A stretch of DNA of 64,000 bases from a virus. Of this stretch, positions 1-18,268 are shown one piece after another (position 1 is the first letter of the stretch; each line of letters opens with the position of its first letter). Position numbers and translations under genes: made by a program. Location of the stretch: IMG/VR virus record IMGVR_UViG_3300017755_003154, positions 20,064 through 84,063 of that record. One strand, 5' to 3'. Under the pieces are notes generated by a model that was not told where the DNA came from, did not search any database, and saw only the letters and a program-made list of their open reading frames with translations.

Positions 1-949
1 CTTGTGTATTAAGTATATTTCTAATATTACTATCTGTATTGTATGGCGATATTTCAGAATTTTCTGGTTTAAGGTCTTGATCAGTATATACAGGAATGCC
101 AAGTTTAGCACATTGGTGAATTAGATCAGCAATATTTGTAGTATTGTAGAAAGAAGCAACTAAAGCAACCATTAGATCAATAGTTGGATATTCTGTCAAC
201 GATTTAAGATTAGCATAAACTTTAGGCCAAGAAGCATTATGTCTAATATAATCATAAACTTTACCTGTACCATCAATACTCAACAATAATTTTACTTTCT
301 TAAATTTTAGAAGTTTTTGAATTAATGGTTTGTTAAATTTTGTACCGTTAGTTGTAAGTTGAATTTCTAATCCGTTAGCATAATTATTATCAATTATCCA
401 ATCAAGTAACCCCATAAAATATTTACAAGCAGTAGGTTCACCTCCTGTAACTTTCCATAATTCTAATCCTTCTTTAACAAGTTTTTTTGTCCATTTTACT
501 TTTCTTAAACTTTCATCTTCTGTTACTTCTGCCCAACCACTAGCAATCCATGATGGAAATTCAGTTTGATCTTTATACAACTCTTCTAATTGATCGCTAT
601 CTGAAGGTTTACACATTCTACATGCAAGATTACATTTATTGCTATATGCAATATCAAGATATTTAATTTTTATTTCTTCTGTATATCCAAATCTTTCAAG
701 TGCTAGTTGTCTATGACTTACCGTATTTCTTTCTTCTTGTACTTTACATTTTTTACAAATTAAGGGCCAGTGTCCGTCTTTCATTTGTTGACGCATTATA
801 TCGTACATACGTGTTTTCAGACCTTTTTCGTAGTTCGCAAACCGCCAAGAGTTTTCTTTTTCAAATACATGACAACAAGGTGTAGGATGTCCTGTAGACC
901 CTATATATTGATGCATGTAAGGTAAAGGACAATATGTTTTAGATGTCAT
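1..949 (-). CDS. N-terminal-Twitch radical SAM protein (3' end outside window)
   Basis: The reading frame is open from ATG at 949 to the left edge (316 codons), so the C-terminus is missing. The N-terminus carries a cysteine pattern (C7, C25-C26, C65, C68) that in this class probably binds an auxiliary Fe-S cluster. It is followed by the radical SAM motif CNLACRMC at residues 106-113 (CxxxCxxC, all three Cys present) and a GGEP-like segment (KVTGGEP) expected to contact SAM. The start lies 11 bases inside the end of the upstream radical SAM gene, so the two are translationally linked. The fold and chemistry class are clear from the motifs. The substrate is unknown. It shares its Cys-first architecture with the genes at 939-2351 and 5599-6687. 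Confidence 0.85.
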   Translation of the reverse strand, partial: MTSKTYCPLPYMHQYIGSTGHPTPCCHVFEKENSWRFANYEKGLKTRMYDIMRQQMKDGHWPLICKKCKVQEERNTVSHRQLALERFGYTEEIKIKYLDIAYSNKCNLACRMCKPSDSDQLEELYKDQTEFPSWIASGWAEVTEDESLRKVKWTKKLVKEGLELWKVTGGEPTACKYFMGLLDWIIDNNYANGLEIQLTTNGTKFNKPLIQKLLKFKKVKLLLSIDGTGKVYDYIRHNASWPKVYANLKSLTEYPTIDLMVALVASFYNTTNIADLIHQCAKLGIPVYTDQDLKPENSEISPYNTDSNIRNILNTQ

Positions 950-2351
950 TAAAAATGTCCTTCATTTCTGGAAATGTTTCTGCGAAGGAAATACTACGTT
1001 GCGTGTCACACAAAGTTAAAAATTCTTTCATCTCTGGTAATCGTCTAGACCAGTCTTCACTTTCCATAAATTGTAGCATACCATTTAGTCTGCTGATGCC
1101 ATAACTAGCATTACGCCATTTATCGTAATCAACTTTACCTTTATGCCAACTAGGTACTCCTTTTTCCCAATTTGCTTCCCACCACGGATACCATGCTTCG
1201 TATTTTTTTCTGCATTTTTCTTTAAACCATTTAGGCAAAATTTTAACATTAAGATGTGGTGGATGATAAACAAAATGATAATTTATTGCTCCTGCTCCAA
1301 ACGGCCACATATTAATTTTTTTAAAACCTTGTTCTAGTTTCCATTGAATAAAATCTGGCAAGTAATATATGTTTAGTGCTTGTACTGCACAAGCAACTGT
1401 TACTTCTGTGTTGTTAGGTGTTTCGTTATCTAGTATATGAAACACTTCTTCTTGACGTTTCCAATTACTAGGGTAGCGAATATAATCGTTCATTTCTTTA
1501 ATACTATCAATTGAATAATGAAAACGCACTAGTTTAAATTCTTTCCATAAGTCAAACAAGTCATCACGCCATTCAACACCATTTGAATTATAACGTAATT
1601 CTAAATCTTTTGCATAACCCATTTTAATTGCATGTTCAAGTATTTCGTAGTGTTCTTCAATAATAAGACTTTCACCGCCTGCAAAATATATTTGTTGCAT
1701 ACTTGGCATTTGCTCATAAAACTGTTTCCAAAATGTAGGATTTTGTTTGTGCCAATTGTAACTACTGCCGTTAAAACTTCCTTTGTCTTTCCATTGCATT
1801 GTTTCTTTTAGGCTTTCATCTTGCACTGCTGGAAAAATTGCTTTGTAATCTTTTATCCAACCACTTGAATCGTGTGGTGAACACATAACACAAGCAAGTT
1901 GACATTTGGTTCCAAAACGTAAATCAATATATGCTAATTGTGGAGGTACTGATCCATCTTCTTTTGTATCTGCAACAATTTTGTCAACATCAACTCTTTG
2001 AGCCCAATACGCTGTTTCCCACATACGCTTTGAATTATGGCCTGCGGCTTCTTCCTTGTAACACTTAATACAACTTGGAGGCATTTCACCATTAAGCATT
2101 TGCTTACGCACATTCTTCATATATGTACTGTTCCACGCTGTTTCAAAGTCACTAACATTTAAGTTGTTAGGTCTTCCTTGTTCATCTTTTAATATGCCAA
2201 CTTGTCCTCCATGTTCTTTATCATTTGTAGGACCAACTGAACTTGCATTTGCTGTACAGCATACTCGCATACTACCGTCAGGTCTAGTACTTAAATGTAC
2301 CCAAGGTAGTAAGCAGAATGTTTCTGAGGGATATTTTGTTTTTTCTGTCAT
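939..2351 (-). CDS. N-terminal-Twitch radical SAM protein
   Basis: 470 residues. The N-terminal region has C13, C31-C32, C94 and C97 around the words FCLLPWVHL and VCC, the pattern of an auxiliary cluster placed before the catalytic barrel (Twitch/SPASM-like). The radical SAM motif CQLACVMC is at residues 150-157, and FAGGES further on is the GGE motif that binds SAM. Unlike canonical SPASM enzymes, no Cys-rich C-terminus is visible. The gene sits 11 bases after the preceding gene and overlaps the next by 11 bases, inside a run of seven radical SAM genes. It should be a 4Fe-4S, 5'-deoxyadenosyl-radical enzyme. The substrate cannot be inferred from the sequence alone. Confidence 0.85.
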   Translation of the reverse strand: MTEKTKYPSETFCLLPWVHLSTRPDGSMRVCCTANASSVGPTNDKEHGGQVGILKDEQGRPNNLNVSDFETAWNSTYMKNVRKQMLNGEMPPSCIKCYKEEAAGHNSKRMWETAYWAQRVDVDKIVADTKEDGSVPPQLAYIDLRFGTKCQLACVMCSPHDSSGWIKDYKAIFPAVQDESLKETMQWKDKGSFNGSSYNWHKQNPTFWKQFYEQMPSMQQIYFAGGESLIIEEHYEILEHAIKMGYAKDLELRYNSNGVEWRDDLFDLWKEFKLVRFHYSIDSIKEMNDYIRYPSNWKRQEEVFHILDNETPNNTEVTVACAVQALNIYYLPDFIQWKLEQGFKKINMWPFGAGAINYHFVYHPPHLNVKILPKWFKEKCRKKYEAWYPWWEANWEKGVPSWHKGKVDYDKWRNASYGISRLNGMLQFMESEDWSRRLPEMKEFLTLCDTQRSISFAETFPEMKDIFNDI

Positions 2352-2362
2352 TATATATGTAC

Positions 2363-3424
2363 TTATCTCATGGTTTCTTCATGTATCTGATTGTTGATAG
2401 TGCTAATAATATTTTGTTTACAATGGTGTACACACTTATCAAATATTTCTGTTTGTATTGTATCATGTAAATTACTGTACCAAGGTGAGTCTAAAATTTC
2501 CTGAAAGTTTTTTCCGTTACCAAGGTGAATGTCTTTAAAATTGTATTTTTTATTATAGGTCTTTTCTAAATCTGTTATATGTGCTTCTGTACCCCACCAA
2601 CAGCAAGGAAGCACTGCTCCTTTTACTGTTATATACAATCCTGAATCTAATCCAAAGTAATCTGGTCTTTGAAGTGCTTTACATACAATTTTCTTTGTTG
2701 TTTTCTTTGTATCTAATTCATGTTTGCCTGTGCCTGGAGTTACAATCTTATGTATTCTTGACTTTGTGCCTCTAAATTTTATACGCTCAAATCCTTCATC
2801 AATACTCCGTTGCCTTGCTAGTTCATCTTGATGTTCGTTGTGTTTAAAATATATAAACTGCCAACTTGCTCTACCGCCTGCGGCAATGTATGTTCTAAAA
2901 TTTTCTTGTAGTTTATTCCAGTCTACATTTCTTCTATATAAATGATTAGTGTCTTCTAATCCATCAATACCAAAAATTACATTCAATCGTTGTATTGTTC
3001 CTGGATTTGTAGTGCCGCGCCGAGGTGCTTTTAAATATTGATATTTGTCGGCAAGTTTTCCTAGTTTCCTCCAAAAATCTTTATTCCTTGTACCACCATT
3101 AGTAGCAATGTTAACTTGTAATTGCCGACTAAATATTCCGCTTTCAAAAATCCATTCAATAATATCTAAAAGGTGAGGATTTGTAGTTGGTTCGTCATAG
3201 TTACCGCAAAAATCAATTAGTCTTAGACTCCAAAAAAAGTCTCCGTTGTCAAACCATTTTTTAAATGTTTCTAAACTTACATATGTGTCGTTAATTCCAA
3301 TATGTTGTTTGTCATCTTTTGTTATGCTTTTTTCTCTCGCACACGCCGGGCACCTAGCATTACAATAGTTGCTTATTTCTAATTGTATTTTTTTAACTTC
3401 TTTTATATTAGCAGGCCAACTCAT
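2363..3424 (-). CDS. Radical SAM protein, C-terminal SPASM/Twitch type
   Basis: 353 residues. The radical SAM motif CNARCPAC is at residues 21-28, immediately after the first beta strand, the usual place. The segment DFCGNYDEP replaces the GGEP SAM-binding loop and recurs in the sister proteins as CGNLGDP, CGVLGDP and CGSVDEP. The C-terminal third holds a PCCWWG word (about residue 275) and a CVHHCKQ word (about 330), the likely ligands of an auxiliary cluster. The start ATG overlaps the stop of the upstream PP-loop gene as ATGA. The related genes at 4646, 6659 and 7762 share the layout, so these are lineage duplicates. Function is unknown beyond the enzyme class. Confidence 0.85.
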   Translation of the reverse strand: MSWPANIKEVKKIQLEISNYCNARCPACAREKSITKDDKQHIGINDTYVSLETFKKWFDNGDFFWSLRLIDFCGNYDEPTTNPHLLDIIEWIFESGIFSRQLQVNIATNGGTRNKDFWRKLGKLADKYQYLKAPRRGTTNPGTIQRLNVIFGIDGLEDTNHLYRRNVDWNKLQENFRTYIAAGGRASWQFIYFKHNEHQDELARQRSIDEGFERIKFRGTKSRIHKIVTPGTGKHELDTKKTTKKIVCKALQRPDYFGLDSGLYITVKGAVLPCCWWGTEAHITDLEKTYNKKYNFKDIHLGNGKNFQEILDSPWYSNLHDTIQTEIFDKCVHHCKQNIISTINNQIHEETMR

Positions 3425-4080
3425 TTATATCTTCCGAATCCCCAGTACCTTTCTCGGCACCACCAACACTCTTCGCAATGTTTTTCTATATTATATTTTT
3501 CATGTTTTTCCCATGCTTCGCAACTACGAGTAATTGGAAATAATGTATCCATAACTCCTAGTGTATTATAAAGTTCTGCAACACCCTTCTTATCAATATT
3601 AACTAATGGATTTCTTGTTAGCCTATTTTTAGTAGGAAATTTTTTTCCATTCCTGTTATCTGATGGACCTGTATGCGGTAACCATTGTCTATATATTTTT
3701 TTAGGAGGATTAGAAGTAATGCCACTATATATAATCTTTGCTGGCGTATTAGCCCTTGTTTCATCAACCAATGTATCTTGTGACGAAACATACTTGTTCA
3801 ATTGGCTTGCATGACTTGTTTGATGTTCTACAAATATATCTCCAAACTCGTTTTTTAAAAATTCTAGTACACGTTTAGCATATATTAATTGATATTGTTT
3901 CCCTGCAAGTGTAGTTGTAATAGGCATAATCTTAATATCAGGTCTTTCTTCTACAACAAATTTTGATAACATATAACCAACAATAGCACTATCAGCGCCT
4001 CCGGAAACTTTATATCCTAAAGTTGTTGTTGATTCGTCTTCGACTATGTGTATATCTTGTTGGCTATTTTTAATAATCAT
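3421..4080 (-). CDS. PP-loop ATPase, QueC-like
   Basis: 219 residues from ATG 4080. I chose this start over an in-frame GTG at 4092 because it makes an ATGA overlap with the upstream stop and has GGAG about 10 bases before it. SGGADS at residues 26-31 is the pyrophosphate-binding PP-loop of the adenine-nucleotide alpha-hydrolase family (QueC, GuaA, TilS). The C-terminus has SC followed by HCEECWWCRER, which matches the four-cysteine zinc site of QueC-type 7-cyano-7-deazaguanine synthases. The family activates a substrate carbonyl by adenylation using ATP. No other queuosine or deazaguanine gene is in the window, so the enzyme may act with the flanking radical SAM proteins on another substrate. 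Confidence 0.7.
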   Translation of the reverse strand: MIIKNSQQDIHIVEDESTTTLGYKVSGGADSAIVGYMLSKFVVEERPDIKIMPITTTLAGKQYQLIYAKRVLEFLKNEFGDIFVEHQTSHASQLNKYVSSQDTLVDETRANTPAKIIYSGITSNPPKKIYRQWLPHTGPSDNRNGKKFPTKNRLTRNPLVNIDKKGVAELYNTLGVMDTLFPITRSCEAWEKHEKYNIEKHCEECWWCRERYWGFGRYK

Positions 4081-4649
4081 AATTTTATACACTCCACGTT
4101 AGTATATTTTTGGATTATATCACATCTACCTTGTATCCTGTATAATCCAAATTTAATATATAAAATATCTCCACAATTAATTCTTCTTGTTGATCCTATG
4201 TAATCATGGTTAATATAGTAGTCAACGTTTATTGATTTATTATTAGTATATTCTACGTCTGCTTTTAAATTAAATTTTAATTCTGCTGGTACTGGATTGT
4301 GATCTTTTATAGCAGGAAACGAATTAATATTAAAATGTCCGTTTACAATGTTAAGCATACTAGGAGGTATTCCGGGATCATCACACCCATCATGTATTTG
4401 GAATACTGTAGCCCGGTGAGCATGAAATACTATGGGTGTTATAAATTCTACATCTGCTGAAAAATGATACTTACCAATTGCTAACTTACGTGTTGTTACT
4501 TCGTTACGCTCTTTATAGTCTGCTATTTTTATACCACGCTCGTATTGAGGTTTATCATCTGTGTCTACAGTACCTTTTGCGTTTCTAAAAACATATGTAT
4601 TGCCATCCTGCTCATATGTGCTGGACCATACTGGAAAAAAGTCTATCAT
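4077..4649 (-). CDS. Jelly-roll protein with polysaccharide-lyase-like motifs
   Basis: 190 residues, predicted mostly beta strand. Three short words fall in the order seen in jelly-roll polysaccharide lyases such as PL7: RNEVT (compare R-T/S-E-L/V-R), FQIHDG (compare the QIH catalytic strand) and YIKFGLYRIQ (compare YFKAGIYNQ). The likely reading is a lyase or carbohydrate-binding protein acting on an acidic polysaccharide. The match is by motif only, the first motif lacks its final Arg, and activity is not assured. It overlaps both neighbours by four bases (ATGA junctions) and so belongs to the radical SAM operon. There is no signal peptide. It could equally be a non-catalytic concanavalin-like sugar binder. 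Confidence 0.45.
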   Translation of the reverse strand: MIDFFPVWSSTYEQDGNTYVFRNAKGTVDTDDKPQYERGIKIADYKERNEVTTRKLAIGKYHFSADVEFITPIVFHAHRATVFQIHDGCDDPGIPPSMLNIVNGHFNINSFPAIKDHNPVPAELKFNLKADVEYTNNKSINVDYYINHDYIGSTRRINCGDILYIKFGLYRIQGRCDIIQKYTNVECIKL

Positions 4650-5602
4650 AATTTCTCCTTAACAAATTTATCTCTTATCTTTTCTGCACAAGTACTTTCA
4701 CACTTAGGAATACGCACATCGTCAGTCCAACTGTCTTTGATACCATTCCAAACTTTACTATTCATTGCTTGATCTAAAGTTACATTTTTAAGATTGATAT
4801 CATACATGTAATCATGCTGTGTAAGTAAATCTTCAAACTTATCTTTATGCTTACCACTAACAGGAAATTCTAACATTTTGCTATTCAAATGACAGCATGG
4901 AATAACATTACCCATATGATTTACAAATATACGTTTTTGATTTGCGTACTTACAACTAATACATGCACGTTCTCCAGGATTACGATCTGCTTTTGCTCTT
5001 TTATGTTTAACTTCTTTAGTATCTTTACGATGACTAATAATAGTTTTGAAATCTCTGAAGCCTTCGTCTTTAGCCATTTGCTTTGCAGTTTCTAGTTGAT
5101 GTTCGTTATGTTCAAAACTAATAAACTGCCAAACACTTTGTCCGCCAGCGGCAATAAACGCCTTAAAATTTTGTTGTACTTTCTTAAAACTTGAACCTTC
5201 TCTGTATACTTCTGATAGTTCATCACTTCCGTCAATACCCCAAGTCACTCTATGACTGCATGTTAATTCTTTTGCTAGTTTTTCCCACCACGCTGTAGTG
5301 CGTAAACTTCCATTAGTAGCAATATTAATATGACATCCCCAACTAGCAAAGTGTTTAATAATTTCATGGAACTGAGGATGACTGCACGGTTCGTCTACAC
5401 TGCCACAAAAATTAATAATCTTCATATTTGGAAACATATGTTTTTGGAACTTTTCTTTTATAGTATCCAAGTCAAGATATGTTTTATTAAGTATGTCGTC
5501 TTTATAATCTGATAGCACACGAAAACAGCCTTTGCATTTAATATTACAAAAACTTGTAAGTTCGATATCAATCCATTCTAATGTTTCACTTGACCATGTC
5601 AT
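4646..5602 (-). CDS. Radical SAM protein, C-terminal SPASM/Twitch type
   Basis: 318 residues from ATG 5602. An upstream in-frame ATG at 5614 exists, but 5602 gives the ATGA overlap used throughout this operon and an N-terminus (MTWSSETLEW) matching its sister at 3424. The motif CNIKCKGC is at residues 19-26. FCGSVDEP occupies the SAM-binding loop position. Near the C-terminus, IPCCH and CESTCAEK words supply probable auxiliary-cluster cysteines, with a further ACISCKY pair mid-protein that the sister at 2363-3424 lacks. It should be a radical SAM enzyme of unknown substrate, co-translated with the jelly-roll protein downstream. Confidence 0.85.
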   Translation of the reverse strand: MTWSSETLEWIDIELTSFCNIKCKGCFRVLSDYKDDILNKTYLDLDTIKEKFQKHMFPNMKIINFCGSVDEPCSHPQFHEIIKHFASWGCHINIATNGSLRTTAWWEKLAKELTCSHRVTWGIDGSDELSEVYREGSSFKKVQQNFKAFIAAGGQSVWQFISFEHNEHQLETAKQMAKDEGFRDFKTIISHRKDTKEVKHKRAKADRNPGERACISCKYANQKRIFVNHMGNVIPCCHLNSKMLEFPVSGKHKDKFEDLLTQHDYMYDINLKNVTLDQAMNSKVWNGIKDSWTDDVRIPKCESTCAEKIRDKFVKEKL

Positions 5603-6687
5603 TCGAAGCACCATCCTATTATTTTTTTACTATCTGTTTTACGTTTTACATCTAAGTCTAATAAAAATTGTTGCATCTTTTTATTATATTCATCGTCATA
5701 TGCGTAGTCGCTACAAAAATGTTTTAACTCAGGTACAGTAGTAGTTTCTAAAACTTTTTCTACAACACTTGGTTTTAAACAGTTAATTCTCAAATGGCGA
5801 GGAGCATGAAGTTTATGTATATCATATCTGCCATTCCATCTATCTTTAATATTACTAACAAGAGTATCAATGTTAGGTAAATTCATTGCTTGTACAGTTA
5901 TATTAAAGTATATGTCTTCAGTATCAAGTTGCATTAATTCATCTGTTTGTTCTATAAAAGTATTATGATTAGTAGGAAATCTAATTAATTCATTTACATC
6001 ACCCCAACCATCTATACTCATACTAAATTCTAATCTTTTAAACTTTGATAAAATATTTAAAAATTTTGGAGTATTACTTATACCGTTAGTTTGAATCTGT
6101 ATCCTAGTATTTTCACAATTCCATTTGTGCTTAGATAAGTCACCTAAAAATTTATGTACATTTTTCATATAAAAAGGTTCGCCACCTGCTATATAAATGT
6201 ATTCTGCCTTATCTACAACTTTTGTATAGACCCAATCCCAGTCAATATCTTCTCGTACTCTTCCAATATCTCTTAATTTATAATTATACTTCTGCCATAT
6301 TTCTGCATCTTCCATCCATTTGCTACTATTTGCAGGATTGCACATTGCACATTTTAAATTACATGTGTTACTAGGTCTTAGATCCCATCTAATAATACCT
6401 TTGTCAAAACCTTTTTGTAAACTACGCTTTCGTTTGCTTTCTTTGCCTAGTTCTTCATTCCTTATGCAATCTATACACTCTGGACGTTTCCAGTTTGTAG
6501 CAAATTTTTGTCTTATAGCATTAATATAAGGATTAGATAATAAGTCTTCAATATTTTTTACACCAGTTACCTCATCATTTTTAAAGAGACAACATGGTTG
6601 TGCATTATATCCTTGGTCAGTGAGTTCTACATATAAACTATTCACTGATTCTAAGCACTTATATTGCTTCAACTTTTTCATTTTCAT
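5599..6687 (-). CDS. N-terminal-Twitch radical SAM protein
   Basis: 362 residues. The Cys-first architecture is clear: C11, PCC at residues 31-33, and C71/C74 (CIDC), then the radical SAM motif CNLKCAMC at 109-116 and IAGGEPF as the SAM-binding loop. It is shorter than the sister at 939-2351. ATG 6687 overlaps the end of the upstream gene. An alternative ATG at 6681 would remove two residues and is not excluded. It ends four bases into the following radical SAM gene. The pairing of N-Twitch genes with C-terminal-type genes along the operon suggests different members handle different steps or substrates. That is inference. Confidence 0.85.
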   Translation of the reverse strand: MKMKKLKQYKCLESVNSLYVELTDQGYNAQPCCLFKNDEVTGVKNIEDLLSNPYINAIRQKFATNWKRPECIDCIRNEELGKESKRKRSLQKGFDKGIIRWDLRPSNTCNLKCAMCNPANSSKWMEDAEIWQKYNYKLRDIGRVREDIDWDWVYTKVVDKAEYIYIAGGEPFYMKNVHKFLGDLSKHKWNCENTRIQIQTNGISNTPKFLNILSKFKRLEFSMSIDGWGDVNELIRFPTNHNTFIEQTDELMQLDTEDIYFNITVQAMNLPNIDTLVSNIKDRWNGRYDIHKLHAPRHLRINCLKPSVVEKVLETTTVPELKHFCSDYAYDDEYNKKMQQFLLDLDVKRKTDSKKIIGWCFE

Positions 6688-7765
6688 CTCTTATTTCGTT
6701 ATGATAGGCTTTATTGTAAGCACAAGTTCTAATACATCTTTTTAAATGCTTTGGATGAGTTGGATTCCAACTGTCTCCAAGGATTTTTTTATACCAAGGA
6801 TGTTGCATAATTTCAGTTATACTTTTATCTTTAAGACTATTCCAACCAGTACCGTATTCAGCAAGTTTTTCATTTATATTATCGTTACCCTTTGCCGCCC
6901 AGTCGCTTAAAAAACAACAAGGCCACATTGTTAAGTTAGCCGCAATAAATATTTCTCCTTCGTGTATATATTTGCATTGTATTGTTTGTAATACTTCTAC
7001 TGTTTCTTTTTCTGTTTTATTTTCTTTAGCAATAAACTTATCAAGTTCTTTCACTTGTTCTACTTTACTGTGTTCTTTTTTTCCTGTAGTAGTAATAACC
7101 TTTTCTGTAGTGACAACTTTCTTTTGCTTATGATCTTTCTTTTTAATTTTAGCCGTCCATTGATGGAAACTATTACGCATACCTGTACGAGTTGCAAAAT
7201 TAAATCCTAAACGTTTTGCATGTTCTCTTGCCGCTTCAAGTTCATGTTCATTATGATCAAAAACAATAAACACCCACTTCGCTCGATATACATATTCGCC
7301 TACAGTTTCTACAAAAGCATTCATATTTCTTTCTAATACTTTCCATTTTGTGTTTACTCTGTAAATATGATTAGTTTGTTCATGCCCGTCTATACACCAA
7401 TGTAAATGAAACCGCTTTTCGTGGTCGTGACAAAGTTGCCCTATTTTACGCCACATGTCTGCTGTGCCGACTGCACCATTAGTACTGATGCTACACACTG
7501 CTCCACACAATAATAGATATTCTAGCATTTCAGCAAACTCAGGATGTATTGCAGGATCTCCTAATACCCCACAAAATTTAAATTCTACTCCTTGATAACT
7601 ATTAGGTGGAAAAATTCTTTTTAGATCAGCAAAACTAAAGTCTTGTACTTTAAGTGTTCCGTCAATAGCGGCATCAGTTCTTGCACAACCAGGGCAAGCC
7701 GCATTGCAGTTACTTGTAATTTCTAATTCTACTTTTTTTAAATCAGAAATATCTGTTAAAATCAT
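6659..7765 (-). CDS. Radical SAM protein, C-terminal type with Lys-rich insertion
   Basis: 368 residues. CNAACPGC at residues 20-27 is the radical SAM motif, and FCGVLGDP holds the SAM-loop position. The C-terminus carries MWPCCF and a CIRTCAY word as auxiliary-cluster ligands. A strongly basic, Lys/Thr-rich stretch of roughly 50 residues (about 205-260) interrupts the second half. It is low complexity and looks like a linker or nucleic-acid-contacting tether. A similar charged insertion occurs at the same place in the next gene (7762-8844), so those two are the closest pair. The start shares an ATGA junction with the gene upstream. Substrate unknown. Confidence 0.85.
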   Translation of the reverse strand: MILTDISDLKKVELEITSNCNAACPGCARTDAAIDGTLKVQDFSFADLKRIFPPNSYQGVEFKFCGVLGDPAIHPEFAEMLEYLLLCGAVCSISTNGAVGTADMWRKIGQLCHDHEKRFHLHWCIDGHEQTNHIYRVNTKWKVLERNMNAFVETVGEYVYRAKWVFIVFDHNEHELEAAREHAKRLGFNFATRTGMRNSFHQWTAKIKKKDHKQKKVVTTEKVITTTGKKEHSKVEQVKELDKFIAKENKTEKETVEVLQTIQCKYIHEGEIFIAANLTMWPCCFLSDWAAKGNDNINEKLAEYGTGWNSLKDKSITEIMQHPWYKKILGDSWNPTHPKHLKRCIRTCAYNKAYHNEIRDENEKVEAI

Positions 7766-8844
7766 TTAAACTGCTCCGCATACGGATCAAATTCGCTACC
7801 ACATTTTTGGGCGCAAACGCCTAATTTACCATCGGCAATACTATCTTTTTGCCAACTTGTAGTAATACTATTGATCAATTTTCCGTTAACCACGTGTTTA
7901 ATGTCGTTATCAATAATACTTATGCCATCCTTGCCGCCAGCACTATCTATATGATCCCATACTTGTTCTACACGAGGATCAGCATGCCACCATTTGTACA
8001 TGCGTCCAGCAGTCCAACAACATGGCATTAATAATCCTTCTGCTGTTACAAATATGCTTCCTTGCTTTGCCACCTTACAAGTTATACTACACTTATCTAA
8101 ATAATCTTTCATACTTCCGTAAGATTTTTCAATTTCTTTTTGTTTTAATAATGCTAAATTTTTATTCTTTTCATCTTTAGGCTGTGCTAGATTTTGTGTT
8201 TCAGCACCTTTTCGATTTACTGCTTGGTGTGATGTTTTAGGTTTGATATCACTTGTAATAAATCTACCTGATTTTTTCTTAATAAACTTTTCACACCCCC
8301 ATTGATTAGCAAGTGCTTCTGCTTCTTCAACTTGATGTTCGTTGTGTTGAAATATTAAAAAGTCCCAACGGGCTCTACCGCCTGCGTCAATAAATGCTTG
8401 CATGTTTCTTTCAACGTTATTCCATACAACATTTTGTCTATACAAATGATTAGTATCACGTAATCCGTCAACACTAAAAATTACTGCTCCTCTACGTCCT
8501 ATTACTTGTGCTAATCTTGCCCACCAGTAAATATCTTTAGCACCTGCATTAGTATTCATACTAAGCCACATATTAGGATTATGTTCTCTAAAATATTCAA
8601 ATACTTCTAATGTATCTCGTGCAACAATAGGATCTCCTAAGTTACCACACATATACATTACATTTAATTGCTTAATAAAGTCAGGACTAAACATACGCTT
8701 TGCATCTGCTAAACTAAGTTCAGCATTTGTTATGTGAGGATTATCTGCGCCACCATTCATATTACGGTCGCACATAGGACAAGCCGCTTGACACTTCTGC
8801 GTAATTTCTAAGTGTACTTCTTTTATGTCTTCGTATCTATACAT
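7762..8844 (-). CDS. Radical SAM protein, C-terminal SPASM/Twitch type
   Basis: 360 residues. The motif CQAACPMC sits at residues 18-25, CGNLGDP marks the SAM-binding loop, and the C-terminal words MPCCWTAG and CAQKCGSE give the expected auxiliary cluster cysteines. A charged Lys/Gln-rich insertion around residues 200-240 parallels the one in 6659-7765. This is the first radical SAM gene in transcription order, starting 22 bases inside the end of a 79-residue gene. The enzyme class is firm, the role unknown. Its GLRDTNHLYRQN word recurs in its C-terminal-type sisters as DTNHLYRRN or QTNHIYRVN, showing common descent. Confidence 0.85.
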   Translation of the reverse strand: MYRYEDIKEVHLEITQKCQAACPMCDRNMNGGADNPHITNAELSLADAKRMFSPDFIKQLNVMYMCGNLGDPIVARDTLEVFEYFREHNPNMWLSMNTNAGAKDIYWWARLAQVIGRRGAVIFSVDGLRDTNHLYRQNVVWNNVERNMQAFIDAGGRARWDFLIFQHNEHQVEEAEALANQWGCEKFIKKKSGRFITSDIKPKTSHQAVNRKGAETQNLAQPKDEKNKNLALLKQKEIEKSYGSMKDYLDKCSITCKVAKQGSIFVTAEGLLMPCCWTAGRMYKWWHADPRVEQVWDHIDSAGGKDGISIIDNDIKHVVNGKLINSITTSWQKDSIADGKLGVCAQKCGSEFDPYAEQFK

Positions 8845-9062
8845 TCGATTACTAGTTTAACATCCTTTCCTGGACCTGTTTCGCTTGGAAGTCCTCCGTA
8901 TGTATTTACATACCAATCAATCACAGCCGCATACCAATTTTGGCTGTTATGATGTGCTTGTTTGTTAAACTGATAAATGTTATTATTAGTTGCTTCCATA
9001 CAACTCAAGGCTCTAGCACTTTCAGTTTGTAGTTGCCTAAGTGTTAGTTTACTTGTATCCAA
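8823..9062 (-). CDS. Small hypothetical protein in the radical SAM operon
   Basis: 79 residues, mostly helical by composition, with a Trp/Tyr/Asn-rich middle (NSQNWYAAVIDWYVN) and a Gly/Pro turn after it. I do not recognise the family. It overlaps the end of the large repeat protein by 14 bases and the start of the first radical SAM gene by 22 bases, which supports it being translated. Small proteins next to radical SAM maturases are sometimes peptide substrates, but this one lacks an obvious leader/core division and the idea is only a possibility. Confidence 0.6.
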   Translation of the reverse strand: MDTSKLTLRQLQTESARALSCMEATNNNIYQFNKQAHHNSQNWYAAVIDWYVNTYGGLPSETGPGKDVKLVIECIDTKT

Positions 9063-12000
9063 TTTTCATATACCTTGTATACTGACCTAAATCAAGTTCG
9101 CCTTCATATAATACTTTTTGCATTGGCGTACTTGAACTAAATTCTTTTAAGTTATTTGAACAGTTCACATGTTCTTTAATTGCAAAGTAATTGTTACTTT
9201 GTAATATAATTAATCTGCTTTCTGGTAGCAGGTTATACCAATCTTTGAAATTATCAATATGTTCACAACTTGTATTAACAATAGTGTGTGGCATATCAGT
9301 CAACGGTATTATTGCACCGTCTAATTTTTCTGTGTTATAGTTGTGTTCAATATAATCAATATGCATAATATCTTGTGTACTTGCTTTAAACTGCCAACCT
9401 TCATTAACTAGATCAGCATTAAACGTTTCTGCAATTTTCCATGCTTCGGGATCAATATCAAAACTACGAATTTTTTCGAAGTCTAATTTTGCTTCTTGCA
9501 TTAATGGCACAATACTAGCATACCAACCTGCACATAAAAATATAGTACCTAATGGTAAATTTAATTTTGTAAGTTCGTCAACCAGCCATTTTTTACTTTT
9601 TAATTGTCCACGGCTCATTACATCTTTGTCATATTCTATTTTGTGCTTGTCTAATATTTCTAATGGTTTTACAAATGCACTTCCTGTATGCTTATCGAGT
9701 ACACGCCACAATGCATGTCTATTATTATCCATAGTTAAATTAACTTCATCAGTTACACTTGGCTCAATACGTTTGACACTCCACATATTTTTATAGAAGC
9801 CTGCCTTTTTAATATCTTCAACAATATTATCTTTATCTTCAATTAGTCTAAACAAACTCATTTCATTTGATTCAACTAGTGCTTTTCGTAAATCATCTGT
9901 TGTATCGCTTTCGTTTATCAATCTAAATAAACTATGTACATTTTTTTCTGTAACTGCTTTACGCAAGTCTTCGTATTCGTCACCTAGTAATCTAAATAAA
10001 CCATGGAAGTTTTTTTCTAATGTTGCTTTGCGTAAATCTTCATAGTCATTGCCTAGTATTCTAAACAGACCGTGTAAATTCTTGTCAATCATTGCTGTAC
10101 GTAAATTATCATGGCTTGGTCCTAACAGTCTGAACAAACTATGCAAGTTATCTTCTGTTACTACTTTACGTAGTTCTTCGTGTTCGTCACCTAACAATCT
10201 AAATAGACTGTGCAAGTTTTCTTCTACCACAGTTTTACGTAGATCTTCGTGTTCATCACCAACAAGTCTAAATAGACTATGCACATTATCTTCAGTTACT
10301 GCTTTTCGTAACTCCTCGTGATCTTCGCCTAGTAATCTAAACAAACTATGTACATTTTTTTCAATATACATTTTTCTAATATCTTCGATATCTTCAATAC
10401 CTTTATTTTCTAAATATCTAAATAAACTGTGATAGTTTCTTTCTTCAACAAATTTACGTAAATCTTCATCTCCAATTATTTTAAGTATGTCTAACATATG
10501 TCCATCGTTATAAAAACGTCTAATATTAGTTACTTTATCACCGTATAATATTTCAAATCTATCTAATAAGTCTACAATAAATGTGTCTCTGGGCGGTAAT
10601 GGTTCATCTTCTTTATATGGAACAGTTTGTTTCCATCCAGTATCTTCTTGTATTTCAACAGGTGCAATATCAACTGGCTTTGTTGTAACTGTGTCAGCAT
10701 CTCTATATAGTTTTTGCCACTCTTCTGTAGTATCAGTAGTTTCTGTAAACTGTTCGTATAGCCAATTAAAATCATTTATTAGCCGAAGGTCAGCCCCGCT
10801 AGAAAGGCCAAACTCCATACCAGCGGTAGCGCCTGCCAAAGCATATTTCCCAAATGGTCTATCGTGTCCCACGGTTGTCCAAGTTTTAAGTCTTTCATTT
10901 GTTTCATTTTCCTTTTGTCTGTCGATTACTTTACTGCTTAATTTTGCACATTCTCTAAATGCACCACGCCAAGTACTGAACTCGCTTGAGTTGAATGCAG
11001 TTATGCAAGATATTCCTTCCATCTTCTTAAATCTATCACTAATACTTGTAGTCATGTCTGGACGACTTGTATCCATATCACGTGTCATTTGCGTAGGAAA
11101 CAATTTTACACCTCCATAGCCATACACTAAATCATTAATAGGATTTTGACTACGCCATACATGCACTGCTCTACTATCTTCTACTTCATAATCAAAATTA
11201 AAATCATCTGCTATAACAGCATCACCGTCTACAATCCAAAACATCTCAGTAGAACAAATATTTGCCGCGGCAATATGTGCTTGATGTATTCCTTTGACTC
11301 CGTGTATACGTTGGGCTCTCGGAAAACGTGTTTTTAACTTATCAAAGTTTTCATCTGCATTTGCTTCGTCATAAGATATCATTACAATATCATATTCTAC
11401 TTTTTTATTAGGAATAAAGTTTGACGAAAAAGTATTAAATTGTGTAGTAGTTGTGCGTATATAAGGATGTTCTGGTCTTGGTGGGTTGCGGTATGTGCTT
11501 TTAAAAAACTTGCTTTGTTGAGCATCTAAGGGCGTTACAGCAATAGGAATATCCAACTGTACTTTTAATCTTTCGCCGTAGTCTTGGCATGCTTCTAGTA
11601 AATCGCTTTCGTCTTGGACTTTTTCTTTCCATAATTTATTCAAGTATTCAAAATCACGAACATTAACATAGTCCCAATCAGTACACATTGTTTTATATAA
11701 GCCTTCTCTTGCTCCATGTATTGCCCAAAGACCGTTTTCTACATCTGCACCTGCCATAGTCCATATATACAAACGTTCTAGATTTTTCCAATGATTGCCA
11801 ATAAGTTCATTTTTTGCTGGTTTCATTCCTTCAATCAGCGACATCTTAACACCTTCACGGAAACCAGCACGCCATGCTTGATGTGGTGTAGCATTATTAT
11901 AGACTGTACTCATTAAACTATTAATTTGAATATATTCTAAATCCCAACAAAAGTCAATACCTGCCGCAATATTATCAGGATCTGCATTTTCGTGAGTTTT

Positions 12001-12360
12001 CATTTTTAAGACTGTTTCTCTATCCCAACATTTTATACCACCATTGCCATAACGCAATCCGTTGATAATATTATCAGCAGTCCAACTAACTACGTGTCTA
12101 GACAGATCCACACCATCTTGAAAATTAATTGTTTGATTTAAAAACTGTTCATCTATTTGATTGTCTCCGTCAATAGTAATAAAACGTTTTGTTTCTGCTA
12201 TGTTTGCACACGCTTTATGAGAAGCATCTGATCCTTCTACTCCGTGTATGCGTTTTGCCCAAGGGGCTTTGGTCAGTAAATCTGCATAATTTTCTTCAGC
12301 ATTTGGCTCGTCATACGACAAGTATATAATGTCGTAGTCTAGAACTTTAAATTGTTTCAT
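9049..12360 (-). CDS. Tandem glycosyltransferase-like / 23-residue repeat / methyltransferase-like protein
   Basis: 1,103 residues from ATG 12360. The frame extends upstream to a TTG at 12381, but the ATG gives the better start and still overlaps the previous gene. Two related domains open the protein (about 1-230 and 320-520). Each begins with a hydrophobic strand plus SYDEPNAEENY or SYDEANADENF and contains IDGDNQID or VDGDAVIAD, the DxD-type signature of nucleotide-sugar glycosyltransferases. Residues about 640-840 form an array of 23-residue units centred on HSLFRLLG...DLRK. The C-terminal part (about 935-1103) has FLCAGWYAS and SFDIDPEAW, resembling SAM-binding motifs I and II of a class I methyltransferase. 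The fusion suggests sugar transfer plus methylation on one scaffold. Target unknown. Confidence 0.65.
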   Translation of the reverse strand: MKQFKVLDYDIIYLSYDEPNAEENYADLLTKAPWAKRIHGVEGSDASHKACANIAETKRFITIDGDNQIDEQFLNQTINFQDGVDLSRHVVSWTADNIINGLRYGNGGIKCWDRETVLKMKTHENADPDNIAAGIDFCWDLEYIQINSLMSTVYNNATPHQAWRAGFREGVKMSLIEGMKPAKNELIGNHWKNLERLYIWTMAGADVENGLWAIHGAREGLYKTMCTDWDYVNVRDFEYLNKLWKEKVQDESDLLEACQDYGERLKVQLDIPIAVTPLDAQQSKFFKSTYRNPPRPEHPYIRTTTTQFNTFSSNFIPNKKVEYDIVMISYDEANADENFDKLKTRFPRAQRIHGVKGIHQAHIAAANICSTEMFWIVDGDAVIADDFNFDYEVEDSRAVHVWRSQNPINDLVYGYGGVKLFPTQMTRDMDTSRPDMTTSISDRFKKMEGISCITAFNSSEFSTWRGAFRECAKLSSKVIDRQKENETNERLKTWTTVGHDRPFGKYALAGATAGMEFGLSSGADLRLINDFNWLYEQFTETTDTTEEWQKLYRDADTVTTKPVDIAPVEIQEDTGWKQTVPYKEDEPLPPRDTFIVDLLDRFEILYGDKVTNIRRFYNDGHMLDILKIIGDEDLRKFVEERNYHSLFRYLENKGIEDIEDIRKMYIEKNVHSLFRLLGEDHEELRKAVTEDNVHSLFRLVGDEHEDLRKTVVEENLHSLFRLLGDEHEELRKVVTEDNLHSLFRLLGPSHDNLRTAMIDKNLHGLFRILGNDYEDLRKATLEKNFHGLFRLLGDEYEDLRKAVTEKNVHSLFRLINESDTTDDLRKALVESNEMSLFRLIEDKDNIVEDIKKAGFYKNMWSVKRIEPSVTDEVNLTMDNNRHALWRVLDKHTGSAFVKPLEILDKHKIEYDKDVMSRGQLKSKKWLVDELTKLNLPLGTIFLCAGWYASIVPLMQEAKLDFEKIRSFDIDPEAWKIAETFNADLVNEGWQFKASTQDIMHIDYIEHNYNTEKLDGAIIPLTDMPHTIVNTSCEHIDNFKDWYNLLPESRLIILQSNNYFAIKEHVNCSNNLKEFSSSTPMQKVLYEGELDLGQYTRYMKIGYK
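9845..10440 (-). repeat. 69-base in-frame repeats (23-residue HSLFR units)
   Basis: Within the large protein a unit of 69 bases recurs with strict spacing: the HSLFR/HGLFR codons fall near 9920, 9989, 10058, 10127, 10196, 10265 and 10334, with longer degenerate units at both ends. The protein consensus is x-H-S/G-L-F-R-L-L-G-D-x-H/Y-E-D/E-L-R-K-x-x-x-E-x-N. DNA copies differ at many third positions, so the array is old and kept by selection on protein rather than freshly amplified. About nine units are recognisable. Confidence 0.9.
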
Positions 12361-12865
12361 CAAAAAATCCGTATGTATCAAAAATCTTTGGCGTATATAT
12401 ACTTACATCGCCACGCTCTTCTTCATAGTTAAAGTTGACTGTATACCCTTTAGTAATTTGTTCTACTGTTGCTGTAAATGTTCTAATTAATAAATGAGGA
12501 TCATTTGCTTTTGTAATACTAAATTTACATTGTTGTCTTGGATTTAACAGCATTTCTTTTTTAACATTTACAACTAATTCCCATTTGTCTGTACGTTTTA
12601 TAATACAATCTCCTATACTTTGTTTAGGTACATGATATATTACATCTTTAATATCATATGTAAATTTAGGTTTTTCATATGCTAGTATTACATATTTCTT
12701 CTGTGCAAGATCATACTTTACAACAAAATTATCTTTCTTGTCAGGATTAGACATAAAGTCAATATATTGGTCTTCATTTACTTCTAAACAAAATTCTGTT
12801 TCAGGAGTATAATTTTGTAAACCAGTAATTCTACTTGTATCTTTATCAAATATTAGCCAGTACAT
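12347..12865 (-). CDS. Hypothetical protein
   Basis: 172 residues, beta-rich, with no motif I recognise. The first residues (MYWLIFDKDTSRITGL) and the segment FTATVEQITKGYTVNFNYEE suggest a small beta-sandwich. It overlaps the glycosyltransferase gene upstream by 13 bases and the large repeat protein downstream by 14, so it is an integral member of the accessory operon. Its position between glycosyltransferases makes a role in the same modification or attachment process plausible, but this is context only. Confidence 0.7.
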   Translation of the reverse strand: MYWLIFDKDTSRITGLQNYTPETEFCLEVNEDQYIDFMSNPDKKDNFVVKYDLAQKKYVILAYEKPKFTYDIKDVIYHVPKQSIGDCIIKRTDKWELVVNVKKEMLLNPRQQCKFSITKANDPHLLIRTFTATVEQITKGYTVNFNYEEERGDVSIYTPKIFDTYGFFDETI

Positions 12866-13659
12866 TTTTCATACCTTGCTAAAATTTTATCACAAAAGTC
12901 TTTTTCAGTATAATGAAAAACGCCATGCTGTTTATGGTTTCCAATTTTAAGTCCGTCATTAAAATACCAATCTACTTTTTCTTGCCAATGCTCACTTGTA
13001 TCTACCCAATTTTGTGCATGTAACTTCATATGTACAAAGTCTATTAAGTCTACTTGTTGAAAGTTGTCATACTCCATAAGTTCTAATACAATGGCCGCAC
13101 ATACATCTATACTACAATGCTTTGGTTTAAATTCTTTACAAAATACATCATAAAAATCTTCCCAATCTTTAATCACAGTTTCTAATAATGCAAAGAATTG
13201 TGCTACACGTTTTGTTTTTTTAAAGTAATACAATCCTGCATACACATTAAATAAATAATTTTGTGAAAATACTTTTCTGTAATACGTGTCGTTGATAGGT
13301 TCTTGTCTGTAGGTAATTGGATTTTGTGTAAAATATAACTCTTCTTTTTCAAATTTTTTCCAATCAATTTTATCTAAAAATAATACATCACTATCAACTA
13401 CAATAGTTTCTTTATATGGACTAAGATTAAATGCTTTCCATCTATTTTCTATTTTCCATTCACTAGACTTTGCCTGATCGTGTTTTAAAACAATTACTTT
13501 ATCAAATATAAAGGCTGTTTTTTCATCAACTTCTTTATCAGTTACAAGAGTGAAATGTTTATTTCCACTATGCATACCGCTCAATGCACACAGATAGGCT
13601 TGTTTTACATAATCATCAGTTGTATTATTTTGTGCAAAGATTAAAATTCCTTTGGTCAT
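12853..13659 (-). CDS. Glycosyltransferase-like protein (DxD)
   Basis: 268 residues. An N-terminal Rossmann-like start (GILIFAQNN) is followed by DYVKQAYLCA and, near residue 95, IVVDSDVLFLD, where DSD is the metal and nucleotide-sugar binding DxD of GT-A fold glycosyltransferases. It is a paralog of the next gene (13656-14453), sharing the KGI-I-N-DYVKQA opening and the DSD block at the same place. The start makes an ATGA overlap with that gene. The likely role is transfer of a sugar from a nucleotide donor. Acceptor unknown. No membrane segment is visible, so it should act in the cytoplasm. Confidence 0.7.
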   Translation of the reverse strand: MTKGILIFAQNNTTDDYVKQAYLCALSGMHSGNKHFTLVTDKEVDEKTAFIFDKVIVLKHDQAKSSEWKIENRWKAFNLSPYKETIVVDSDVLFLDKIDWKKFEKEELYFTQNPITYRQEPINDTYYRKVFSQNYLFNVYAGLYYFKKTKRVAQFFALLETVIKDWEDFYDVFCKEFKPKHCSIDVCAAIVLELMEYDNFQQVDLIDFVHMKLHAQNWVDTSEHWQEKVDWYFNDGLKIGNHKQHGVFHYTEKDFCDKILARYEKCTG

Positions 13660-14453
13660 AGTAATTCCTCTAAATTAAACTTATTCATTGCATGTACAGT
13701 CATGTTTTTTGTCTTAATTGGATTGTTGTCTATTATAAATGTAAGTTCATCGTCTTTTATACTATGTAACGTATCCTTGTCAATAGTATAATATAGTTTA
13801 CCTGGCATAGGACCAACAAAATTTGCTTTGCTATGGCCACTCATTATGTGTATACCAATACTAAACGCAAAATCATTACGATATGTTTGTTGTGTTATTT
13901 GATATAACATTCTATAATGCGTCCATTCTTCTTCTATATGCTGTAATAAATCAAAAAATATTTTATTTTGTTTACATTTTGTAAAATATACACAAGTTGC
14001 CCAATAAAAGTCTACACTTGCATCGCTTACTTTATCAAATTCTCTATAATCAATATGTTTTGATTCATTTGCTAAATGATATGCTTTCCTATACATTAAT
14101 AAAGGATTGTTTTGTGTAAAACAGTTTTTATAAGTATCATCACAAATAATAATATCACTATCAATCATTAAAGTTTGATCATATGGAGTTAATTCATAAC
14201 TTAACACCCTTGCATTGTTTTTAAATGTAAGGTGTTTTCCGTTATTACCATTATTGTATAATTTTTTTGTGTATCTTTGCGGAGTATTAAATTTTATTAC
14301 GTTATCAAATACTGAATTATCAATATCCATATCAGTAATTACACTTGTAGGCAAGTCAAGATGCTTCTTAGCACGTTTAGCAACATCTATTGCTTGCTTT
14401 ACGTAATCTATTTCTTCATTGTTAAATGCATGAACAATTATGCCTTTAGACAT
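13656..14453 (-). CDS. Glycosyltransferase-like protein (DxD), paralog of neighbour
   Basis: 265 residues from ATG 14453. An upstream in-frame ATG at 14480 would add nine residues, but 14453 aligns with the paralog's MTKGILIF start (MSKGIIVHAF) and has an AGGGAA ribosome site. EEIDYVKQAIDVAKRAKKH follows the first strand. TLMIDSDIIICDD carries the DxD motif expected to bind a metal and nucleotide sugar. A duplicated glycosyltransferase pair beside a larger tandem-domain glycosyltransferase points to building a short glycan or to decorating several sites. Donor and acceptor cannot be read from the sequence. Confidence 0.7.
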   Translation of the reverse strand: MSKGIIVHAFNNEEIDYVKQAIDVAKRAKKHLDLPTSVITDMDIDNSVFDNVIKFNTPQRYTKKLYNNGNNGKHLTFKNNARVLSYELTPYDQTLMIDSDIIICDDTYKNCFTQNNPLLMYRKAYHLANESKHIDYREFDKVSDASVDFYWATCVYFTKCKQNKIFFDLLQHIEEEWTHYRMLYQITQQTYRNDFAFSIGIHIMSGHSKANFVGPMPGKLYYTIDKDTLHSIKDDELTFIIDNNPIKTKNMTVHAMNKFNLEELL

Positions 14454-14781
14454 CAAGAATTCCCTGTACGGTACGTTCACTTTTTATTAATTTTTGATAT
14501 TCTGTATGATAAGTTTTTAACGCAGTTGAATATGCTTCTACTAAAGCATCATAAAATTCACCTCTATTTTTTATTTCAATAGGAGTATTGTTATTATCTA
14601 CAAAAATACAACTGTTAATTGTCTTTAAACTTGCAATGTATTCTCTTGAAGCAGTAAATTGCCCGCCATCATAATAGATTGTAGATTGTTTGTCAAACTG
14701 GTTTAGTAGTACACGCTTTTGATTTTTAAATGTTGTAACATAATCTGCATGTTCAAGTGCTTTTTTTAGACGTTGATCCAT
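14446..14781 (-). CDS. Small hypothetical protein, first gene of accessory operon
   Basis: 111 residues, helical, with a central segment (YYDGGQFTASREYIASL) and a Tyr/Lys-rich C-terminal helix. I do not recognise a defined family. It overlaps the glycosyltransferase start by eight bases. It is the promoter-proximal gene of the minus-strand accessory operon: the sigma-70 promoter at 14,802-14,830 is 21 bases upstream of its ATG. The position next to the fibre cluster could suggest a chaperone-type role, but nothing in the sequence establishes it. Confidence 0.7.
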   Translation of the reverse strand: MDQRLKKALEHADYVTTFKNQKRVLLNQFDKQSTIYYDGGQFTASREYIASLKTINSCIFVDNNNTPIEIKNRGEFYDALVEAYSTALKTYHTEYQKLIKSERTVQGILDV

Positions 14782-14801
14782 AATTTCTCCATATAATTAC
14801 T

Positions 14802-14830
14802 ATTATACGGCAAAACTGCTAGAAAGTCAA
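14802..14830 (-). promoter_or_regulatory. Sigma-70-type (early) promoter for accessory operon
   Basis: On the minus strand TTGACT (14,830-14,825) is separated by exactly 17 bases from TATAAT (14,807-14,802), one mismatch from the full bacterial consensus. It lies in the short gap between the fibre genes and the accessory operon. The next ATG is at 14,781. Two other promoters in the window have the same design (49,631-49,659 and 50,525-50,553). Confidence 0.85.
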
Positions 14831-14833
14831 GTA

Positions 14834-15772: not shown

Positions 15773-15815
15773 TTAAATCTCCTCTTACGGCAAATACCGT
15801 ATACTATTAATTATC

Positions 15816-16724: not shown

Positions 16725-16754
16725 AGCCTACTTCCTTTATATACGTGTTTTAAA

Positions 16755-16762
16755 TATTTATA
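16755..16762 (-). promoter_or_regulatory. Late promoter motif TATAAATA
   Basis: A perfect T4 late consensus TATAAATA on the minus strand, about 30 bases upstream of ATG 16,724 and overlapping the end of the upstream fibre gene. Confidence 0.6.
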
Positions 16763-18236: not shown

Positions 18237-18260
18237 GTTTCAACCCTTTAATTATAACTA

Positions 18261-18268
18261 TATTTATC
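18261..18268 (-). promoter_or_regulatory. Late promoter motif GATAAATA
   Basis: Minus-strand GATAAATA, 25 bases upstream of ATG 18,236, in the 32-base gap between two fibre genes. One mismatch to TATAAATA. Confidence 0.5.

Follow-up and report, generated by a model that had tools for sequence, protein, structure and literature searches.

Phages of the T4-like group are already known to carry many genes for radical S-adenosylmethionine (rSAM) enzymes. The Campylobacter phages CP220 and CPt10 contain 11 and 12 of them, respectively, and five lie in an exchangeable module together with nucleotide-sugar-transferase-like genes near the baseplate genes; Timms et al. described the exchange of rSAM genes en bloc (PMC2853527). 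Our own recount of CP220 also gave 11. A marine T4-like phage of 183 kb, TARA_ERS488813_N000010, has 12 rSAM genes (PMC5332604). In pelagimyophages, a host recognition cluster adjoins the tail fibres and rSAM cassettes have been mentioned (PMC7029224), and polymorphic clusters for polysaccharide or secondary-metabolite tailoring have been proposed for cyanophages (PMC7824862). Here we describe an array of 13 rSAM genes in an 84,063-bp virus record of IMG/VR (IMGVR_UViG_3300017755_003154), of which record positions 20064-84063 constitute the window, the 64,000-nucleotide stretch that was analyzed.

The 13 rSAM genes all lie on the minus strand between record positions 10294 and 28907. Matches to PF04055 in the record number 13, with E-values from 7e-17 to 1e-5, 10 of them above the Pfam cut-off and all on a single strand, which excludes chance. 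A first-pass annotation of the window had reported seven intact rSAM genes in positions 1-8844, and these seven (rS7-rS13) are indeed present as minus-strand open reading frames with one CxxxCxxC motif each. Seven is not the size of the array, however, as six more genes (rS1-rS6) lie beyond the window edge at record positions 10294-19847, and rS7, which that edge cuts, is 390 amino acids long when uncut (L010:9840-11012). Nor is there support for the view that so high a number is extreme for a virus, given the 11, 12 and 12 rSAM genes of CP220, CPt10 and the TARA phage. The ATGA-type overlaps said to join the genes were found at three of nine junctions (4 bp, ATGA/GTGA-type), the others being overlaps of 11-29 bp and one 11-bp gap. 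Portal, baseplate wedge, baseplate hub/lysozyme, tail-collar fibre and SbcC-like proteins are encoded in the window and support a phage origin. The portal is nearest to those of Atu_ph07/Phosso/PA5oct-type jumbo phages.

We propose, with a probability of about 0.4, that the array serves as an exchangeable tailoring locus within the region for host recognition in a lineage of large marine T4-like phages, and that its target is a glycan or glycoconjugate on the surface of the virion or of the infected cell. The comparative evidence begins with a constant frame. Searches with rS8 recovered 233 viral loci and searches with a gene for a 79-residue protein, here called small, recovered 480; the best 80 of each, chosen by similarity, were used. 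Loci fetched with either gene share the order GTrep family (a large protein described below), small, rS13, variable genes, rS8, variable genes and often rS2. Among small-fetched loci with room, rS13 is found downstream in 51 of 51 and rS8 in 40 of 41, with rS13 ahead of rS8 in 48 of 48, and a GTrep member lies no more than two genes upstream of small in 67 of 68. Related large IMG/VR records hold 6-21 rSAM genes apiece, and 733 of 756 rSAM genes across related loci are co-directional. Exactly one small gene is present in 23 of 24 large records, whose portals span 54-98% identity to the portal described here. Scattered single copies with unrelated neighbours were looked for in related phages and are not the arrangement found there; the coordinated multi-gene pathway suggested at first pass is supported by the copy numbers, common direction and fixed frame.

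The filling of this frame is exchangeable. The rSAM repertoire is open, with 118 families over 89 loci, 40 of them confined to a single locus, and an accumulation curve that is still climbing; most related records are fragments, and these family counts rest on a single-linkage threshold at a normalised score of 0.40. In the most telling comparison, with locus L015, the portal is 98% identical and rS8, rS2, rS13 and small are 96, 94, 88 and 79% identical, respectively, while the remaining rSAM proteins match at 38% or less. Loci L020 and L022 likewise keep rS13 and rS8 with the other rSAM genes replaced. The L015 pattern is one of cassette exchange around a constant core. A dN/dS proxy of 0.07-0.12 for the core genes, with dS near saturation, indicates purifying selection. 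On these comparative grounds, a module composed of a fixed frame and variable cassettes is well supported. Besides rSAM enzymes, the variable genes include those for a PP-loop protein, 2-oxoglutarate oxygenase, desaturase, nitroreductase-like protein, AMP-ligase and nucleotide-sugar dehydrogenase, and related arrays hold UDPG/GDP-Man dehydrogenase, alginate-lyase-like and DUF6473 genes. The names nitroreductase, SGNH-like, kinase-like, amidinotransferase-like and GTa/GTb were assigned by eye. In several phages, an alginate-lyase-like gene (L021:4659-5855) that lies between rS13 and rS8 is encoded on the other strand. Other viruses (L111-L117) contain a second, distinct module in which two rSAM genes stand within a string of approximately nine conserved genes; one of the two resembles rS10 at 35-37%.

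Cysteine layout splits the 13 rSAM proteins into three types: an N-terminal twitch-like type (rS1, 3, 4, 6, 7, 8 and 11), a C-terminal SPASM-like type in which CGxxGDP/DEP replaces GGE (rS9, 10, 12 and 13), and a third layout (rS2 and rS5). All 13 have CxxxCxxC; PF04055 scores lie above the cut-off in 10 and below it in rS9, rS12 and rS13 (E-values 1e-5 to 8e-4), with rS9 at 26.0 bits against a cut-off of 29.5 and just above the cut-off for SPASM (22.0 against 21.5). SAM-binding residues beyond the cysteines, the possible lack of which had been raised at first pass, are present as GGE in nine of 13 and as CGxxGDP/DEP in four of 13 (by eye in rS9, rS10 and rS12; invariant across orthologues in rS13). 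Alignments of rS8 and rS13 show the SAM-binding motif and further residues to be invariant. Judged by motif and alignment, the catalytic residues are intact. In an NCBIfam scan covering ten of the proteins, rS1-rS10, NF033640 (cut-off 170 bits) was passed by rS1, rS3, rS4, rS6, rS7 and rS8 and failed by rS2, rS5, rS9 and rS10. The most conserved gene of the array is rS8, with a mean column identity of 82% across 30 phages; five N-twitch paralogues are only 20-23% identical to it, yet share 21 invariant positions that include all cluster cysteines, GGE, SID and one Arg. The 830-residue rS6 has a PP-loop region behind its rSAM part, a weak match below the cut-off. The closest pair, rS9 and rS10, is separated by 1.62 substitutions per site. 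Recent tandem duplication was rejected as the origin of the array because the 13 genes are deep paralogues, each closer to genes of other phages.

The small gene starts with TTG in 58 of 69 loci and overlaps its upstream gene by 14 nucleotides in 54 of 69, which suggests translational coupling with GTrep. Within that overlap the stop of GTrep reads IGYK* against LDISN of small (window 8823-9062, L012-L110). The protein has 24 invariant positions, and its polar residues N26-N28, H37-H38 and S40 are invariant or nearly so. An AlphaFold2 (AF2) model is helical, with a predicted local distance difference test (pLDDT) of 88.8 and a predicted template-modelling score (pTM) of 0.77. No relatives were found in cultured phages or the PDB, nor any fold match in the PDB and BFVD at an E-value below 1; sequence-profile searches matched designed repeat proteins and antibody chains, which we regard as chance hits. 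Loci L030 and L079 lack small, and a kinase-like cassette fills its slot.

For GTrep, the AF2 model (pLDDT 80, pTM 0.45) predicts two glycosyltransferase (GT) domains of GT-A-like fold, LHSLFRLL repeats that form an alpha solenoid, and a Rossmann domain. The best Foldseek matches were the chondroitin polymerase K4CP (2z87), itself with two GT-A domains, at an E-value of 7e-5 and probability 0.98 with low TM-scores, and the methyltransferase NodS (3ofk) at 2e-4 and probability 1.0 with a target TM-score of approximately 0.7. NodS is a chito-oligosaccharide N-methyltransferase. Sequence profiles gave no convincing solved homologues of either the glycosyltransferase or the methyltransferase domains, and the two roles, assigned at the level of predicted fold, are a lead and not an answer. 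In many phages the halves of GTrep are separate genes, the methyltransferase half adjoining small. Across residues ~600-900 (gene at window 9049-12381), a unit of the type NLHSLFRLLGDEHEELRKAV recurs in degenerate form some ten times, and the number of copies varies among phages. The first-pass annotation had held the neighbours to be silent on the substrate; they give no answer, but GTrep and the conserved small protein upstream of the array provide a lead.

Around the array (Table 1), the genes small, GTrep, further glycosyltransferase-like genes and then tail fibres and baseplate follow in order on one side. Past the rSAM genes on the other, a nitroreductase-like gene, a desaturase, a TauD-type oxygenase and two Asp/Asn-hydroxylase-like genes run in the same direction. 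Between the rSAM genes, the PP-loop ATPase noted at first pass was recovered; the 190-residue protein was called a jelly-roll protein, a label left unsupported since it has no match in Pfam, PHROG or the PDB. Pfam and PHROG searches with h172, GTa and GTb gave no matches. PHROG tail fibre, tail collar and virion structural matches cover 16758-22110, and 14834-16724 is assigned by position only. Elsewhere in the window, 54522-57367 encodes two neighbouring low-complexity proteins rich in Gly, Ala and Pro.

Table 1. Coordinates (window positions) of the rSAM array and adjoining genes
Feature	Position	Strand	Evidence
rS7, N-twitch rSAM, cut by window edge	2..949	-	PF04055 46.5 bits; NF033640 222.8 bits (cut-off 170)
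rS8, core N-twitch rSAM, 470 aa	939..2351	-	NF033640 418.9 bits
rS9, rSAM, C-terminal SPASM-like cysteines, variable cassette	2363..3424	-	CxxxCxxC; phrog_21308
PP-loop ATPase, QueC-like	3421..4092	-	PF06508 23.3 bits (cut-off 22)
190-aa protein, no assigned fold	4077..4649	-	present in few loci
rS10, SPASM-type rSAM, variable cassette	4646..5614	-	PF04055 37.6 bits; phrog_21308 126.7 bits
rS11, rSAM, N-terminal twitch-like cysteines, variable cassette	5599..6687	-	PF04055 44.3 bits; cysteine pattern
rS12, SPASM-type rSAM, variable cassette	6659..7765	-	CxxxCxxC; PF04055 20.1 bits (under cut-off); phrog_21308
rS13, core SPASM-type rSAM	7762..8844	-	invariant CxxxCxxC and CGNxGDP across 23 phages
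small, 79-aa core protein, TTG start	8823..9062	-	480 viral loci; AF2 helical
GTrep, 1110 aa: two GT-A-like domains, LHSLFRLL-repeat solenoid, class I methyltransferase domain (predicted)	9049..12381	-	AF2 and Foldseek
h172, GTa, GTb, glycosyltransferase-like (by eye)	12347..14480	-	conserved position between tail fibres and array
Tail-fibre/tail-collar genes, upstream of array	14834..22110	-	PHROG; position

Compared with the described systems, the array resembles those of CP220 and CPt10 in rSAM number and T4-like background (PMC2853527), but homologues of small, rS8 and rS13 were not detected in them and similarity to rS10 is distant (26%). A glycine amidinotransferase belongs to the CP220-type module and none was recognised in the window array; c69 of related arrays is amidinotransferase-like by eye, without a Pfam match. 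TARA_ERS488813_N000010 possibly belongs to the same lineage, although its rSAM genes were merely listed as Fe-S proteins, with the frame, the small gene and a pathway undescribed (PMC5332604). Pelagimyophages, including Mosig EXVC030M, share a variable island with tail fibres, glycosyltransferases, Asp/Asn hydroxylases, a nitroreductase, a desaturase and rSAM cassettes (PMC7029224). Mosig, however, has few rSAM genes (two by PF04055) and lacks the conserved core. With respect to the extent of the host recognition cluster, from VrlC/tail fibres to gp14, the tail-fibre/baseplate side is present here and the gp14 side was not identified. The cyanophage clusters are also phage-borne and polymorphic, with oxygenases and glycosyltransferases, but are based on a carbamoyltransferase and a halogenase, and the available portion of that report does not mention rSAM enzymes (PMC7824862). 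Among the open-licence papers found, none describes the constant frame, the small gene, how large the family is or the bacterial counterpart described next, which does not amount to proof of novelty.

When cellular genomes were scanned, one for each of 84,980 prokaryote species, orthologues of rS8 at full length (57-64%) turned up in contigs of Bdellovibrionota, several of them chromosome-sized, with rS13 (45-49%) and rS2 (57-72%) beside them. These clusters (L199, L246, L218 and others) resemble the phage arrays in their core rSAM proteins, 45-72% identical overall, and in holding relatives of GTrep, the PP-loop protein and the c8 and rS5 rSAM proteins; they differ in being chromosomal, in their GT2 genes, in a looser order and strand, and in lacking small, which is absent from the genomes that keep rS13-rS8-rS2. 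GT2 glycosyltransferases, a QueC-like PP-loop protein and an Asp/Asn-hydroxylase-like protein neighbour the core, the GT2 count being biased because the queries were drawn from three of the eight loci. Class-wide searches were positive in 13 of 144 and 6 of 129 Bdellovibrionota genomes, about nine of them new beyond the earlier scan, whereas rS8 was found in none of ~560 sampled Alpha- and Gammaproteobacteria, bar two contigs resembling misbinned phage. One simple way to account for the sharing would be that the phages infect Bdellovibrionota. Predation is known at the level of the group, and the metagenome-assembled genomes here may stem from predators; the common core hints that phages and bacteria reach a surface molecule of unusual chemistry by the same route. 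HTTM/gamma-carboxylase-like membrane proteins were guessed at in these clusters, and Pfam gave no support. Bdellovibrionota genomes (L205-L267) have many additional N-twitch rSAM paralogues, and the core genes of L199 and L246 have genes for predicted secreted proteins close by (930-1337 and 1981-2454, respectively). Contigs binned as Neisseriaceae, Rickettsiales, Gammaproteobacteria and Chloroflexi (L197, L203, L204, L260) resemble misbinned phage of the rSAM-array family; one (L298, the L204 contig, MED685) has an in-frame TGA inside the rS8 frame, either a sequencing error or recoding.

In the pathway that we envisage, the GT-like domains would assemble a glycan or glycoconjugate during infection, on which the three core rSAM enzymes and the methyltransferase would install a conserved modification. 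Lineage-specific rSAM enzymes and oxygenases would then add further C-H modifications, for instance epimerisation, deoxygenation, methylation or cross-linking. Each phage might thereby display its own chemical variant on tail fibres or the infected-cell surface, where it could serve attachment or block competing phages. The small folded protein may be a phage-specific acceptor or adaptor, and Bdellovibrionota would run the same core enzymes without it. That all of this forms one joint pathway, with GT-like domains making the acceptor, rSAM enzymes functionalising it and a surface product, is a tentative proposal that we hold at somewhat less than even odds. A glycan or glycoconjugate is favoured because of GTrep, the nucleotide-sugar dehydrogenase and alginate-lyase-like genes and the GT2 genes of Bdellovibrionota, and the array adjoins tail fibres as the pelagimyophage host recognition cluster does (PMC7029224).

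Several points weigh against this proposal. Product and substrate are both assigned by inference, and the GT and methyltransferase labels come from the fold similarity of a model with a pTM of 0.45, for which TM-scores over the whole chain are low and the sequence itself matches no family; a fold match to NodS is, moreover, what class I methyltransferases give in general. Peptides are the commoner substrates of SPASM/twitch rSAM enzymes, the Asp/Asn-hydroxylase-like and AMP-ligase genes would fit amino-acid or peptide chemistry equally well, and some variable genes are unrelated to sugars. An A-type Fe-S carrier (PF01521) occurs in only 2 of 25 phage records (L288, L289), and a phage-encoded carrier was therefore rejected as a general supplier; since most related records lack one, supply would depend on the host. 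TARA_ERS488813_N000010 does carry an Fe-S carrier (PMC5332604).

The enzyme type and the small protein make polypeptide modification a serious rival, albeit a somewhat unlikely one, in which the rSAM enzymes, with Asp/Asn-hydroxylase-like enzymes, would act on small or on tail-fibre proteins in the manner of ribosomally synthesized and post-translationally modified peptides (RiPPs), with a folded substrate. Small is the sole apparent non-enzyme in the frame, near-universal, single-copy and, with its conserved polar residues, located immediately upstream of rS13; most of the SPASM/twitch relatives in NCBIfam are peptide maturases, and Asp_Arg_Hydrox genes flank the array. As a RiPP precursor small is nevertheless atypical: it is predicted to fold, and it is missing from the Bdellovibrionota that keep the core as well as from L030 and L079, all of which weakens the idea of a classic leader-core peptide. 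Pfam scans at E<=0.01 found no PqqD/RRE domain among the array proteins scanned. A diffusible small molecule derived from amino acids or sugars and made in infection, for example against competitors or host defence, is distinctly unlikely. Such a product would suit the mixture of AMP-binding ligase, class IV aminotransferase, oxygenases, nitroreductase-like and PP-loop genes, reminiscent of a biosynthetic gene cluster, the corresponding region of the SAR11 phage isolate Mosig, which has aminotransferase, carbamoyltransferase and rSAM genes, and the sugar/amino-acid metabolite cluster proposed for cyanophages (PMC7824862). Yet no transporter or resistance gene was recognised in the array, its position is fixed beside tail fibres, and lytic phages would gain little from a product that diffuses away.

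Anti-defence or nucleic-acid chemistry, such as viperin-like nucleotides, 7-deazaguanine or another DNA modification, is very unlikely: the PP-loop protein is QueC-like, just above the Pfam cut-off, and rS2, rS5 and rS10 give weak scores with viperin models, but NF038283 reaches at best 39-42 bits where 180 are required, matches of the QueE type are weak with none above cut-off among the ten rSAM proteins scanned, and both identities were rejected on these scores. The known pathway, moreover, requires one QueE-type rSAM enzyme and not 13, and the array is linked to tail fibres rather than to replication. Most improbable, in our view, is that no joint pathway exists and that recombination has gathered unrelated rSAM cargo at a hotspot. 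The many single-locus families, the deep paralogy of the 13 genes and the en-bloc exchange described by Timms et al. (PMC2853527) are what a hotspot might produce, but the frame is constant, ordered, under purifying selection and retained when the rest is swapped.

A fuller version of the tailoring-locus proposal, which we regard as unlikely in its entirety, is a combinatorial system in which a constant three-rSAM core, a carrier protein and exchanged cassettes would yield phage-specific, C-H-functionalised virion glycans or glycoproteins, with predators using the same core chemistry in contacting prey. If the tailoring-locus proposal is right, few known sets of rSAM enzymes would be as dense and as variable as that of phages, arranged around a constant core; the set would amount to a naturally occurring library of C-H chemistry, and viruses would have a new route by which to diversify their surface. 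The core held in common with Bdellovibrionota would tie phage attachment to bacterial predation, and GTrep, small, rS13, rS8 and rS2 would form a small, testable gene set in which to search for the substrate.

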